From: Variovorax sp. PCZ-1 | Lineage (GTDB): Bacteria; Pseudomonadota; Gammaproteobacteria; Burkholderiales; Burkholderiaceae_C | DNA: 64,000 nt | Reading direction: 5' to 3' | NCBI RefSeq assembly: GCF_018413605.1 | Contig: NZ_JAHCDN010000001.1 | Coordinates: 310,001 to 374,000, forward strand | Shown: piece by piece, positions 28,891 to 41,597 of the stretch | Position numbering within the stretch: the first letter of the stretch is position 1 | Layout of the letters: every line of letters begins with the position of its first letter | Made by a program: the position numbers and the translations under genes | The notes under the pieces: model-generated | Told to the model about the DNA's origin: nothing | The model's database searches: none | Seen by the model: only the letters and a program-made list of their open reading frames with translations

Positions 28891-29016
28891 GCCTTCGATG
28901 TACGCCTGCGCTTGGGGTATCCCCCTCCGCGAATGTCCTCCGGCTGGCGCTGCGCGCGTGCCTCCCCCTTTATTTCGCTGCGGTCGATACCCCAATCACA
29001 GTCGTACATCGAAGGC
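28891..29016 (-). repeat. Hairpin element A (first of pair 1)
   Basis: Perfect 14-bp outer arms (GCCTTCGATGTACG at 28891-28904, its complement at 29003-29016) and nested perfect 10-bp inner arms (TTGGGGTATC at 28912-28921, its complement at 28986-28995). The conserved core GCAGCGAAATAAAGGGGGAG reads on the minus strand. It is placed 35 bases upstream of the dehydratase start, so it may overlap that gene's promoter or leader. Confidence 0.85.
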
Positions 29017-29105
29017 AAAGGGTTAGCGTGTTGAGTTCCAATCTCGCTGCGCCAAAATTGCTGGGAATAGTTATCGTGGGCGAGCGAAGATTCTCACATT
29101 AGCCA

Positions 29106-29217
29106 ACAGGCCTCGGTTGTGATTGGGTTGTTTCTCGCAGCGAAATAAAGGGGGAGACGGCGCAGTCGGCGGAGCACATTCGCGCAGGGGAACAGCACAA
29201 TTACAACCGAGGCCTGT
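29106..29217 (+). repeat. Hairpin element B (second of pair 1)
   Basis: Perfect 15-bp arms (ACAGGCCTCGGTTGT at 29106-29120, its complement at 29203-29217), unrelated in sequence to those of element A. The core GCAGCGAAATAAAGGGGGAG, identical to A over 20 bases, reads on the plus strand, and CACATTCGCGCAGGGG parallels the GACATTCGCGGAGGGG of A. It lies 89 bases from A in the opposite orientation. Confidence 0.85.
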
Positions 29218-29250: not shown

Positions 29251-29312
29251 TGCAAAATCAATAGCACTCCGCGCAGAAAATACGCCGGCAAACTGCTCAA
29301 AAGGCTTCGAAA
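29251..29312 (-). repeat. Dispersed repeat, intergenic copy downstream of gltA
   Basis: AAATCAATAGCACTCC, then GCGCAGAAAATACGCCGGC, then AAACTGCTCAAAAGGC: a close reverse-orientation copy, abutting the gltA terminator. Confidence 0.87.
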
Positions 29313-29315
29313 AAC

Positions 29316-31008: not shown

Positions 31009-31030
31009 GATGGTGTGGAGAGTTTCTTTT

Positions 31031-31132
31031 GAACGCAGAAGACGCAAAAGTTACGCAAAAGGCGCAGAAGTAAAACCAAACTTTGGCTGTTCTTTTTGTG
31101 TCTTCTGCGTGATTTCTGCGTCTTTTGCGTTC
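31031..31132. repeat. CGCAAAAG-type large inverted repeat (copy 2)
   Basis: Left arm GAACGCAGAAGACGCAAAAG, then TTACGCAAAAGGCGCAGAAG; right arm TCTTCTGCGTGATTTCTGCG, then TCTTTTGCGTTC. The loop is about 20 bases. It lies between sdhB and sdhE within the operon, where it could act as an RNA-stability or attenuation hairpin. Confidence 0.8.
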
Positions 31133-31145
31133 AACTGCATAGTCA

Positions 31146-33706: not shown

Positions 33707-33779
33707 TGCTTTTTTAAGCATCATTTGGCAAGATAGCCGACATAAATACTGCGCGGAGTGCTATTAAAATAATAGTATC
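33707..33779 (+). repeat. Dispersed repeat, copy between sdhD and sdhA
   Basis: GCCGACATAAATACTGCGC, then GGAGTGCTATTAAAATAATAG, with the T-rich flank CTTTTTTAAGCATC to the left. It interrupts an operon whose genes elsewhere are tightly packed, yet leaves every frame intact. Confidence 0.83.
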
Positions 33780-35835: not shown

Positions 35836-35862
35836 TTGAGGTTTTGTGCAAGTGAAAGAATT

Positions 35863-35955
35863 GAACGCAGAAGACGCAAAAGTTTCGCAAAAGACGCAAA
35901 AAAGTCTTTTGGATTCTTCCGCGAATTTTGCGTAGTTTTTGCGTCTTTTGCGTTC
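35863..35955. repeat. CGCAAAAG-type large inverted repeat (copy 3)
   Basis: Left arm GAACGCAGAAGACGCAAAAG, then TTTCGCAAAAGACGC; right arm GCGTAGTTTTTGCGTCTTTT, then GCGTTC. The loop is small. It lies between the protease stop and the MoxR start, and could serve as terminator or processing hairpin for the protease mRNA. Confidence 0.8.
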
Positions 35956-36001
35956 TATTTTTAAGATCGCTCAAGCATTCGACTACAGAAAGAATCCGGA
36001 T

Positions 36002-39067: not shown

Positions 39068-39107
39068 CGGTTGCTGCGGCCTGTGCTGCTGTGCCCGCCA
39101 CCGCCAC

Positions 39108-39211
39108 AGCGCATGCACCTCCGAACGCGCCCCCAGCGGCGATGAGTATGGTTTACCTCCAGCAAATTGGTATCTCCGCCTCCTCCTTTACCTCACTGCG
39201 GTACATGCGCT
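39108..39211 (-). repeat. Hairpin element C (first of pair 2)
   Basis: Twelve-base arms, AGCGCATGCACC (39108-39119) and GGTACATGCGCT (39200-39211), pair at 11 of 12 positions, with a G-T at the other. On the minus strand the core reads CCGCAGTGAGGTAAAGGAGG then AGGCGGAGATACC, clearly related to elements A, B and D. It starts 40 bases after the VWA gene stop. Confidence 0.78.
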
Positions 39212-39303
39212 ATGTCGATGGCTGCGAATGAAAGCAGCTATTTTTTTAAGCGCTGTGGCGCAAATGAAATGGCTTTTTCAATGAGAGCCGATTCGCTCGC
39301 AAG

Positions 39304-39422
39304 ATCGTGCTGCCTGTGCGTTTTGCGGAGGTAAAGGAGGAGGCGGCGAAACCTACCTGCCGAAGAAAAATATGACTAAACGCCGCCGGGGGACACGTAG
39401 CAAAACGCACAGGCAGCGCGAT
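39304..39422 (+). repeat. Hairpin element D (second of pair 2)
   Basis: The arms at 39304-39326 and 39400-39422 pair at 22 of 23 positions; the left arm contains GCTGCCTGTGCGTTTTGC. Inside is a nested 7-bp stem GGCGGCG/CGCCGCC and the core GGAGGTAAAGGAGGAGGCGG shared with C. It is oriented opposite to C across a 92-base spacer, repeating the layout of pair 1. Confidence 0.85.
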
Positions 39423-39456: not shown

Positions 39457-41094
39457 TTACAAACCATCCAAGTCAGACAACATCTCCTTAGCACGAGCCC
39501 TGAGAGCCTTACGTTCATCATCCGTCATCCGCTGCAAATTCTTAACCATCAATGCCGTTCGCGGATTACCAGCAAACTCTTTCTCATGCACATCCAAGAA
39601 ATTCCAATACAGCACCGTCATTGGGCAAGCGTCTTGGCCAGTGCGCACCTCGGGTGAATACGCGCAGCCTTGGCAATAGTTACTCATGCGCTTCACATAC
39701 GCACCGCTGGCTACATACGGCTTGCTCGTGAAGCGTCCGCCGTTGGCAAAGAGCGCCATGCCTGCGGTATTCGGCAGCTCCACCCATTCCACGGCATCGA
39801 CATAGACTGCCAAATACCAATCACACAAAGCTTGCGGCTTGATTTGCGCCGTGACGCCAAACATACCGGTGATCATCAAGCGCTGGATGTGATGTGAGTA
39901 GCCGTTTTGTAGCGTCTGCTCAATACTGTTTTTCATACAGTTCATCTGGGTGTTGCCAGTCCAATACCATTTGGGCAGCGCATTTTGATGATCGTAAAAG
40001 TTGTCTTTGGCAAGCTGGGGCATGTCCAGAAAATACACCCCTCGCATGAACTCGCGCCAGCCGAGGATTTGACGAATGAAGCCTTCTGCACTCGGGAGAT
40101 CCACCTTGCCAGATCGGTAGCATTTCTCAGCAGCTTGAATGACTTCGAGCGGATGGAGCAGCTTGAGATTCAGTGATGAAGAGAGCAAAGAATGCCAGCC
40201 AAAATCCAGATGTGTCCACATCGCGTCTTGATGCGGGCCAAAGAAGGGCAGGCGCAGCTTGATGAAATCATCGAGGGCTTGGAGGGCTTGTTCGCGTGTG
40301 ACGGGCCAGTTGAATGTGTCTAAATTGCCAGGATGATCTGCAAACTGCTTGTTCACCAGCTTGATCACATCTTGGGTGATGGCATCATGTTTGTATTCGC
40401 GTACTGCAGGCACACCTTGTGGCCCACTTTTGCCGAAACTCTTGCGATTGTCTGCATCAAAATTCCATTGCCCACCCTCTGGCTCGGCGCTGCCCTTTTT
40501 GCCTGCCATCAAGATGTGATGCTTCTTGCGCATCACTCGGTAGAAAAATTCCATGCGCAGCGTCGTGCTCTTACCTGCCCATTGGCGAAATTCGGAGAGA
40601 TCGCAGAGGAAGTGTGTATCTGGCAGCCATTGCATGGATTTTTTTAAGCGATTTATGCTGTTTGCCGGCACAGAATCTGCGCGAAATGCTATTAAATGCA
40701 TAGTATCGTCAAGTTGCTGTCTGACCCGCCAATCCCCAGGTTCTACAGCAATCACAGCTTGTGGTGAGTACGTTTTGATCACAGCCTGCAGTCCGTCAGC
40801 GAGACTGACATCCGCTTCTTTATCCAGTTGCCGATAAATCACTGGCCAGCCTCGGTCTTCCAAGTCTTTCGCAAAATGGCGCATCGCAGAGAGAAAGAGC
40901 GCTGTGCGAATCTTGTGGCTCCATACATGGGTCGATTCTTCTCGCGCTTCAATCATGAGCACTGCATCTTGCTTGGGATCAAAATCTACAAAAGCAGAAG
41001 ATTCGCGATCGAGTTGATCGCCCAGAATCAAGACGAGATGGCGAACTGTTTTTGGAATTTTCATGTCGGGATTGTGCGCATCATGCAAAGCCAT
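39457..41094 (-). CDS. FeS-containing photolyase-related protein (PhrB/CryPro type), with repeat insert
   Basis: A 545-residue member of the FeS bacterial cryptochrome/photolyase group, which repairs UV (6-4) photoproducts or senses light using FAD and a [4Fe-4S] cluster. The N-terminal RHLVLILGDQLDRESSAF is the antenna domain start. The FAD region includes FIRQILGWREFMRGVY. Cluster cysteines are in TQMNCMKN and NYCQGCAYSPE through DACPMTV. The segment TMHLIAFRADSVPA (about residues 130-143) is a dispersed-repeat insert between antenna and FAD domains. The start is uncertain: ATG 41064 (MKIPKTVRHL) is also good. Confidence 0.87.
   Translation of the reverse strand: MALHDAHNPDMKIPKTVRHLVLILGDQLDRESSAFVDFDPKQDAVLMIEAREESTHVWSHKIRTALFLSAMRHFAKDLEDRGWPVIYRQLDKEADVSLADGLQAVIKTYSPQAVIAVEPGDWRVRQQLDDTMHLIAFRADSVPANSINRLKKSMQWLPDTHFLCDLSEFRQWAGKSTTLRMEFFYRVMRKKHHILMAGKKGSAEPEGGQWNFDADNRKSFGKSGPQGVPAVREYKHDAITQDVIKLVNKQFADHPGNLDTFNWPVTREQALQALDDFIKLRLPFFGPHQDAMWTHLDFGWHSLLSSSLNLKLLHPLEVIQAAEKCYRSGKVDLPSAEGFIRQILGWREFMRGVYFLDMPQLAKDNFYDHQNALPKWYWTGNTQMNCMKNSIEQTLQNGYSHHIQRLMITGMFGVTAQIKPQALCDWYLAVYVDAVEWVELPNTAGMALFANGGRFTSKPYVASGAYVKRMSNYCQGCAYSPEVRTGQDACPMTVLYWNFLDVHEKEFAGNPRTALMVKNLQRMTDDERKALRARAKEMLSDLDGL
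40636..40706 (+). repeat. Dispersed repeat, copy in photolyase gene
   Basis: TTGCCGGCACAGAATCTGCG, then CGAAATGCTATTAAATGCAT, then AGTA, with the TTTTTTTAAGCG flank. Read on the coding (minus) strand it is in frame and encodes TMHLIAFRADSVPANS. Confidence 0.88.
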
Positions 41095-41117: not shown

Positions 41118-41597
41118 ATGACCAGCGCTGCAAACCGAGACCCTGTGAATGCCTACATCGCTCTGGGCGCAAATTTAGGCGATGCGCAGCGAAGTGTGCA
41201 AGATGCGATGCAACAGATCGCGCAGTTACCCCAAACGCAATTGCTCTCCTGCTCATCGCTGTATCGCACCGCACCGATTGAAAGCAGTGGGGGTGACTAC
41301 ATCAATGCAGTTGTGAAGGTTTTATGCAATTTGCCGGCATATTCATTGCTCACCATGCTACAAAAAATAGAGCATGAGGCTGGACGTGAAAGACCGTATC
41401 GCAATGCTCCGCGCAGCTTGGATTTGGATCTTCTGCTGTATGGCAGTGCTCGCATCGACAGCGAAAAACTGAGCGTGCCGCATCCACGAATGCGAGACAG
41501 AGCCTTTGTATTGCTGCCTTTGCAAGAGATCGCGCCAGAATTGGTCTCACGCGCTGATCTGCTGCGTGTGGCCGATCAGCGCATCACGCGATTGTGA
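41118..41597 (+). CDS. folK: 2-amino-4-hydroxy-6-hydroxymethyldihydropteridine diphosphokinase
   Basis: A 159-residue HPPK adding pyrophosphate to the pterin in folate synthesis. The family motifs AYIALGANLGDAQRSVQDA, RTAPIES, the ATP/Mg block RNAPRSLDLDLLLYG and PHPRMRDRAFVLLPL are all present. The segment LPAYSLLTMLQKIEH overlaps a decayed match to the dispersed repeat (41332-41376), though it also fits the normal HPPK helix at this place. It is divergent from the photolyase gene and has no fol neighbour. Confidence 0.94.
   Translation: MTSAANRDPVNAYIALGANLGDAQRSVQDAMQQIAQLPQTQLLSCSSLYRTAPIESSGGDYINAVVKVLCNLPAYSLLTMLQKIEHEAGRERPYRNAPRSLDLDLLLYGSARIDSEKLSVPHPRMRDRAFVLLPLQEIAPELVSRADLLRVADQRITRL
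41332..41376 (+). repeat. Possible decayed dispersed repeat in folK
   Basis: GCCGGCATATTCATTGCTC, then ACCATGCTACAAAAAATAG resembles the consensus at both ends but differs in the middle. It could be an old copy or chance, because ordinary HPPK proteins have a helix of similar composition here. Confidence 0.4.

Follow-up and report, generated by a model that had tools for sequence, protein, structure and literature searches.

A widespread family of paired, inverted hairpins, probably mobile, REP-like and kept folded on one strand

Two pairs of divergently oriented palindromes lie about 10 kb apart in the 64,000-nucleotide stretch of Variovorax sp. PCZ-1 (the window). This raises the question of whether such pairs are chance neighbors or copies of one composite element and, if the latter, what moves it and what keeps its fold. 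We find that pair 2 is a single instance of a dispersed composite of two hairpins, the first on the minus and the second on the plus strand, which probably belongs to a widespread, mobile, REP-like family of paired hairpins kept folded on one strand.

The composite unit and its copies

Each element consists of an outer stem of 20–40 bp, a short purine-rich internal region (the hub) and an inner stem-loop, and the two sites in the window are built as follows:

39097–39222, minus strand: left hairpin of pair 2 (element C), with B/L-type arms GCCATCGACATAGCGCATGTACC
39180–39189, minus strand: 5′ side of the element C hub, AAAGGAGGAG
39223–39303, unstranded: spacer of pair 2, 81 bp
39304–39422, plus strand: right hairpin of pair 2 (element D), with A/R-type arms
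39304–39326 and 39400–39422, plus strand: arms of element D, pairing at 22 of 23 positions
39333–39342, plus strand: 5′ side of the element D hub, AAAGGAGGAG
39342–39387, plus strand: inner stem-loop of element D, GGCGGCG / CGCCGCC with a 32-nt loop
39388–39395, plus strand: 3′ side of the element D hub, GGGGGACA
28891–29016, minus strand: left hairpin of pair 1, with D-type arms and a short inner hairpin with a GCA triloop
28934–28971, minus strand: strict core of the pair 1 left hairpin
29017–29105, unstranded: spacer of pair 1, 89 bp
29106–29217, plus strand: right hairpin of pair 1, core at 29147–29178

The initial annotation had read the minus-then-plus order correctly for both pairs, as well as the arm pairing of element D. 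Element C, described there as 104 bp long with arms pairing at 11 of 12 positions, is really 126 bp long with outer arms of about 23 nt, and its 3′ hub has decayed to GGGGGCGC. The spacers had been put at 89 and 92 bp, of which the first stands and the second is corrected to 81 bp; the beginning of this pair 2 spacer is similar to the spacers of other A/B pairs. Folded as DNA, the AAAGG strand of element D reaches −35 kcal/mol (z −7.0, equalled by 0 of 200 shuffles), while the opposite strand folds nearly equally (−32 kcal/mol, z −6.4). For element C, the AAAGG strand has a z of −2.7 (2 of 200 shuffles as good) and the opposite strand barely folds (z −0.9, 41 of 200). The window also holds two inverted repeats of the GAACGCAGAAGACGCAAAAG type, 4.8 kb apart (31029–31134 and 35856–35962; first arms 93% alike over 41 nt), and another short dispersed repeat (AATAGCACTCCGCGCAGA...GCCGGC) at 29260–29314, 33724–33779, 40639–40707 and 41320–41376, with similar stretches in loci L002, L003 and L018.

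A 431-bp pair 2 query against the source genome (G000; 3.54 Mb in 24 contigs) returned 27 BLAST matches including the query itself; two of the 26 others are element C against element D within the query, and the best other copy has an E-value of 1.6e-44. The strict hub pattern AAAGGRGGAGN{20,50}GGRGGACA occurs 22 times in this genome, 62 times in genome G001 and five times in G002, and its reversed control never. Given the matches within its own genome and the 22 strict hubs against none reversed, the pairs are not due to chance, and the genome-wide search for single element and composite uncovers a dispersed family larger than had been reported. Twenty sites were found in the source genome, on a list built around pattern places that sites with both members decayed would escape: 15 are pairs, all minus–plus, and five are singles. 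Outside the genus, 221 elements fall in 146 loci, and 63 of the 66 neighbors closer than 400 bp are likewise minus–plus (some loci overlap), 43 of the 63 with 108–125 bp between cores. With 15 of 20 sites paired and 63 of 66 neighbors in one orientation at near-fixed spacing, the composite suspected from the two window pairs does recur, and its copies are neither mostly solitary nor freely spaced. Individual hairpins measure 110–130 nt and the composite about 270–330 bp; across 51 distinct units from outside the genus, the medians are 272 bp for the whole unit and 45 bp for its spacer.

By a rough ORF caller, 12 pairs lie between convergent genes, 14 between tandem and four between divergent ones, two lie inside predicted ORFs, and seven contexts are unresolved. 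Single elements in tandem contexts are sense in 18 cases and antisense in 10, with no clear bias, and their orientation relative to GC skew is 32 to 28, again without bias. Two units with mirrored arms occur within one 8-kb locus of Luteimonas terricola (L211), and in locus L164 (1766–1845) an extra tandem copy of arm sequence follows the right arm.

The arms fall into families, namely the A/R type (GATCG...), the B/L type (GCCA...), the C1 and C2 types (GCCCG...) and the D type with TGTGATTGGG, which are alike within and unlike between families. An earlier remark that all arms differ is thus right within pairs 1 and 2, while genome-wide the arms recur. Nearly every hairpin is self-complementary, the exceptions being A arms split by another insert. 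Many A/B copies are common to two species, and C-type pairs number at least 10 in G001 and one in G000. The inner hairpin is swapped independently of the arms, as seen at four B-type sites common to these two genomes, where the arms match and the inner hairpins differ. These sites, and a second hairpin element observed at the same point inside an A-type arm at three G000 sites, are:

L008/L034, L007/L116, L005/L125 and L010/L124 (G000/G001): B-type sites with differing inner hairpins
L007 1598–1770, L009 1594–1760 and L010 1594–1765 (G000), also L116 and L124 (G001): second hairpin element, about 165 bp

Locus L118 of G001 is the uninterrupted counterpart of L009 of G000.

Covariation in the hub and strand-specific conservation of the fold

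The fixed part of each hairpin is its purine hub, TAAAGGRGGAG / CGGRGGACA. The outer arms and inner stems around it vary between copies yet stay complementary; in 80 different cores of 38 nt, all from other genera, 665 of 720 inner-stem cells are canonical against 500 (sd 7) after shuffling. The R positions of the hub (6/33) covary: among 335 distinct hubs we counted A-G 233 times, G-A 80, A-A 12, G-G 3 and other combinations 7 times, although the search would have admitted A-A and G-G, and here, as in the counts for inner stems, for the R:Y pair, for positions 5/34 and for arm mismatches, the copies share ancestry and are not independent. Just outside the hub, an R:Y pair is A:T in 187 cases, G:C in 68 and other in 6 (n = 261). 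When the hub is relaxed (277 elements), mutual information peaks at positions 6/33 and 5/34, the latter being G-G in 266, A-T in 9 and other in 2. Since 6/33 and 5/34 share one register, one GGRGG stretch probably lies opposite the other, forming a helix with many purine-purine pairs. A G-quadruplex in the hub was also considered; the A-T replacement at 5/34 favors the paired helix.

Mismatches in the arms are strongly asymmetric when read on the AAAGG strand: across 356 elements (n = 1484), G.T accounts for 697, A.C for 111, G.A for 468 and others for 208. The left and right hairpins of a pair have their AAAGG strands on opposite DNA strands, and the excess of G.T over A.C holds on both sides, with 84 to 14 in left and 96 to 15 in right hairpins. 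Thirteen hairpins common to G000 and G001, or to G065 and G181, allow comparison at fixed sites. Single changes there comprise 29 between Watson–Crick and G.T, one between Watson–Crick and A.C, nine between Watson–Crick and another mismatch and two between mismatches, and the same 13 hairpins show 16 double changes from one Watson–Crick pair to another. An earlier permissive count (53 single and 11 double changes breaking pairs; 35 kept and 20 compensatory) was unfavorable because the pairing ran into flanks and included L009/L118, where an insert interrupts the arm; the stricter count left out this locus pair and 23 pairs that did not keep register in both genomes. From the G.T excess on both sides and the changes at fixed sites, therefore, folding of the AAAGG strand is maintained in place, which for the left and right hairpins means opposite DNA strands. 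If mutation were biased from C to T on the AAAGG strand only, this could raise the G.T excess without selection; alone, it would not yield the double changes. One site, between the end of an aldehyde-dehydrogenase-like gene and an hpaD-like gene (both named by sequence reading), carries a unit in G000 and also in two genomes from a different genus. With their folding retained, the hairpins probably do something as single strands.

Range and turnover of the unit

The pattern occurs in 71 of 299 genomes and 44 of 141 genera in a sample of the larger family, with no reversed match; 51 of the 71 have two or more matches and 20 a single one. In a sample of the order, 14 of 399 genomes carry it, among them the source genome, a member of the family and a match that is probably due to chance. 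The control gave five genomes with one reversed match each, so a lone match in this sample may be fortuitous; the pattern also reaches two further families of the order. With a tighter pattern at class level, one further genome with seven matches appears among 183, with G000 and one family member excluded. Among the matches listed are Rubrivivax, Hydrogenophaga, Rhodoferax, Methylibium, Variovorax, Aquabacterium, Sulfurisoma and other genera, as well as Luteimonas, Pseudoxanthomonas and Lysobacter from a scan of named genomes that is no census of organisms. The range is patchy even nearby: in 21 family genomes of other genera from the nearest-relatives sample, the pair 2 BLAST query finds nothing and the pattern occurs in three (G007, G011 and G022). 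We observed the hub pattern on two IMG/VR viral contigs (L189 and L190), and a search of phage records with one unit gave no match. The literature searched holds no paper that appears to describe the family, which is weak evidence of novelty as most subscription journals lie outside that search. The paired palindromes, with copies between the genes of many bacterial genera, form a large and apparently undescribed family.

Whole units are present or absent at otherwise comparable sites. A 317-bp stretch of V. paradoxus ISL-79 corresponds to 13 bp in two replicons labelled V. paradoxus, and at this one clean empty site, with flanks 84–88% identical, no target duplication is visible. Cupriavidus and Caballeronia records spanning the ISL-79 region have similar shortfalls (alignments not inspected), which suggests that the ISL-79 site is an insertion. 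Of the 62 pattern places in G001, 12 were queried against the source genome: seven are collinear, all seven without the unit there, and the remaining five are split or unmatched. The empty sites in relatives that the initial annotation had proposed to seek thus exist, and at most sites we infer insertion rather than loss. Genome G481 has five whole units, spacers included, each in its own flanking sequence; three lie less than 6 kb from one another. The units appear to disperse, and some also appear old in place; movement is not frequent everywhere, because A/B copies span two species and one site two genera.

The 14 largest clusters of neighboring ORFs in loci L189–L310 contain no recognizable transposase- or nuclease-like gene; these are single-linkage clusters, several of them artifacts of antisense ORFs in GC-rich DNA, and one (seven loci) looks enoyl-CoA hydratase-like. 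No cargo-bearing unit was found among the loci examined. A 2.5-kb minus–plus pair in Rubrivivax gelatinosus (L303), taken up as a candidate cargo transposon, proved to be two left-type copies.

Candidate mechanisms and meaning

The likeness to REPINs raised at the outset holds for the architecture. As in REPINs and REP-BIMEs, inverted pairs of strand-specific imperfect hairpins, non-coding and mostly intergenic, are dispersed over the genome; the source genome has one Y1_Tnp (RAYT-type) gene, and at least one is present in 55 of the 80 element-bearing genomes (all 71 family positives and nine order positives). In Rubrivivax (L275), a single element and the only RAYT-like ORF of loci L189–L310 are about 0.1 kb apart. 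Membership does not follow, however: RAYT genes are widespread in the family in any case (31 of 40 relatives), and the other 25 of the 80 genomes carry no Y1_Tnp and the units persist in them, with 23 strict copies in G292, 25 in G481 and 15 in G121, so that RAYT is rejected as a required mobilizer. The RAYT of the source genome is flanked by its own short palindrome TTAATTGGGGTCAGAACCCAATTAATT (L028, about 1080–1150 and 1880–1915), and its 3.3-kb locus is without any element. Tags at 107 hairpin starts amount to two GTAG and one CGTC, against about 3.8 of each expected by chance. According to PMC3733652, REPs are 20–40 bp long, whereas the present hairpins, at 110–130 nt (element C 126 bp, element D 119 bp), are three to four times that size and add a purine hub, variable but covarying arms and folding kept at fixed sites. 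RAYTs, as described in PMC8266576, bind the folded single-stranded REP and not its complement, relying on mismatches or loops. We consider it quite improbable that these are true REPINs, that is, unusually large REPs mobilized by the resident Y1 transposase. A similar TTAATTGGGGTCAGAACCCAATTAATT copy adjoins a hairpin element in L067 (about 1415).

We give somewhat less credence still to the idea that these are degenerating MITEs of a DDE insertion sequence, their hairpins being no more than terminal inverted repeats. The Variovorax insertion of approximately 0.3 kb, which has outer inverted arms, and the outer inverted flanks of C-type copies in G001 would fit such elements, but compensatory change over species distance and retention of one site over genus distance are unexpected of dead copies. 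The strand asymmetry also speaks against them, as may the lack of a visible target duplication at the one empty site with its 84–88% identical flanks. Ordinary bidirectional terminators would likewise be mostly intergenic hairpins, often between convergent genes; yet a conserved hub, inverted pairing and near-fixed spacing are foreign to terminators, whole units recur, and by eye no T-run follows the hairpin of element D, the one inspected, making this reading barely credible.

A stronger contender, although in our judgment an unlikely one, is a pair of structured RNAs, in which the hairpins act in transcripts and the inverted arrangement serves genes on both sides, for example through 3′-UTR protection, processing, protein binding or self-cleavage. 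Strand-specific G.T tolerance with compensatory change is equally expected of RNA, a conserved internal loop flanked by variable stems is typical of RNA motifs, and pairs lie in convergent or tandem contexts more often than in divergent ones. On the other side stand the absence of clear sense bias among singles in tandem contexts and an Rfam scan of 11 loci with nine matches up to an E-value of 5, none at gathering score. The loops also speak for DNA: among 232 distinct inner loops, taken from cores no longer than 50 nt, 155 are triloops, 113 of them C(GNA)G, GNRA makes up 10 of 44 tetraloops and UUCG is absent from all 232. C(GNA)G forms an exceptionally stable DNA mini-hairpin, and its dominance favors single-stranded DNA over RNA, if not decisively. 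For the STAXI motif, likewise a repeated structured motif for which single-stranded DNA was considered, UUCG tetraloops were taken as an argument for RNA by Weinberg et al. 2010 (PMC2864571); because the same reasoning applies to our UUCG-free loops, these point to DNA. With DNA parameters the 292-nt Variovorax unit folds into a four-arm cloverleaf on both strands, while with RNA parameters its two hubs pair together and leave no separate hairpins. In 51 units the closing complementarity is only weakly above that of mispaired flanks (19.0 versus 16.6), so we assert a closing outer stem for this Variovorax copy alone and suggest one for the C-type copies of G001. Taken together, we lean toward the hairpins acting as single-stranded DNA, with rather more than even confidence.

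As an explanation of the whole, we narrowly favor a dispersed, non-autonomous, REP-like mobile unit that works through a single-stranded DNA fold. Against this weigh the missing mobilizing enzyme and cargo-bearing copy in the loci examined, and the nearly equal folding of element D on its opposite strand. Such a unit of about 270–330 bp would comprise two hairpins in inverted orientation. In each, the outer and inner stems vary, the purine hub is conserved, and the inner stem mostly ends in a C(GNA)G triloop; in the one apparently recent copy, from Variovorax, an outer stem would close the unit into a four-arm cloverleaf. When the locus becomes single-stranded during replication or repair, the AAAGG strand of each hairpin would fold, and the folded hub may be bound by a candidate single-strand-acting protein, which would move the unit in trans, or confer an advantage through which folding is preserved at fixed sites, or both; the inverted pairing would make the unit independent of orientation. 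Integron attC sites and IS200/IS605 ends also fold on one strand, with stems of partly free sequence and extrahelical or mismatched bases as the signal. The present family shares the one-strand fold and partly free stems and differs in that its conserved part is internal, not terminal; no association with an integrase or TnpA was seen, the systematic search having covered Y1_Tnp. More tentatively, and somewhat short of an even chance, the family may be a new class of mobile single-stranded DNA structure: a cloverleaf unit, served by a putative RAYT-independent protein acting on single-stranded DNA, spread between beta- and gammaproteobacteria and held in its fold by selection in place. Its signal, as part of the same tentative reading, would be the purine-purine hub helix, GGRGG facing GGRGG, with covarying R-R and G-G replaced by A-T.

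When compensatory changes preserve a fold, they are usually taken as proof of RNA. Here they are seen on opposite strands in two neighboring hairpins of a dispersed unit, with loops typical of DNA. Whether DNA or RNA, more than 70 sampled genomes carry an unexplained structured family that is directly testable. If single-stranded DNA is confirmed, the family would be a clear natural case of selection on folded chromosomal DNA beyond integrons and IS200/IS605; it would also suggest that environmental bacteria have an undiscovered protein acting on single-stranded DNA.
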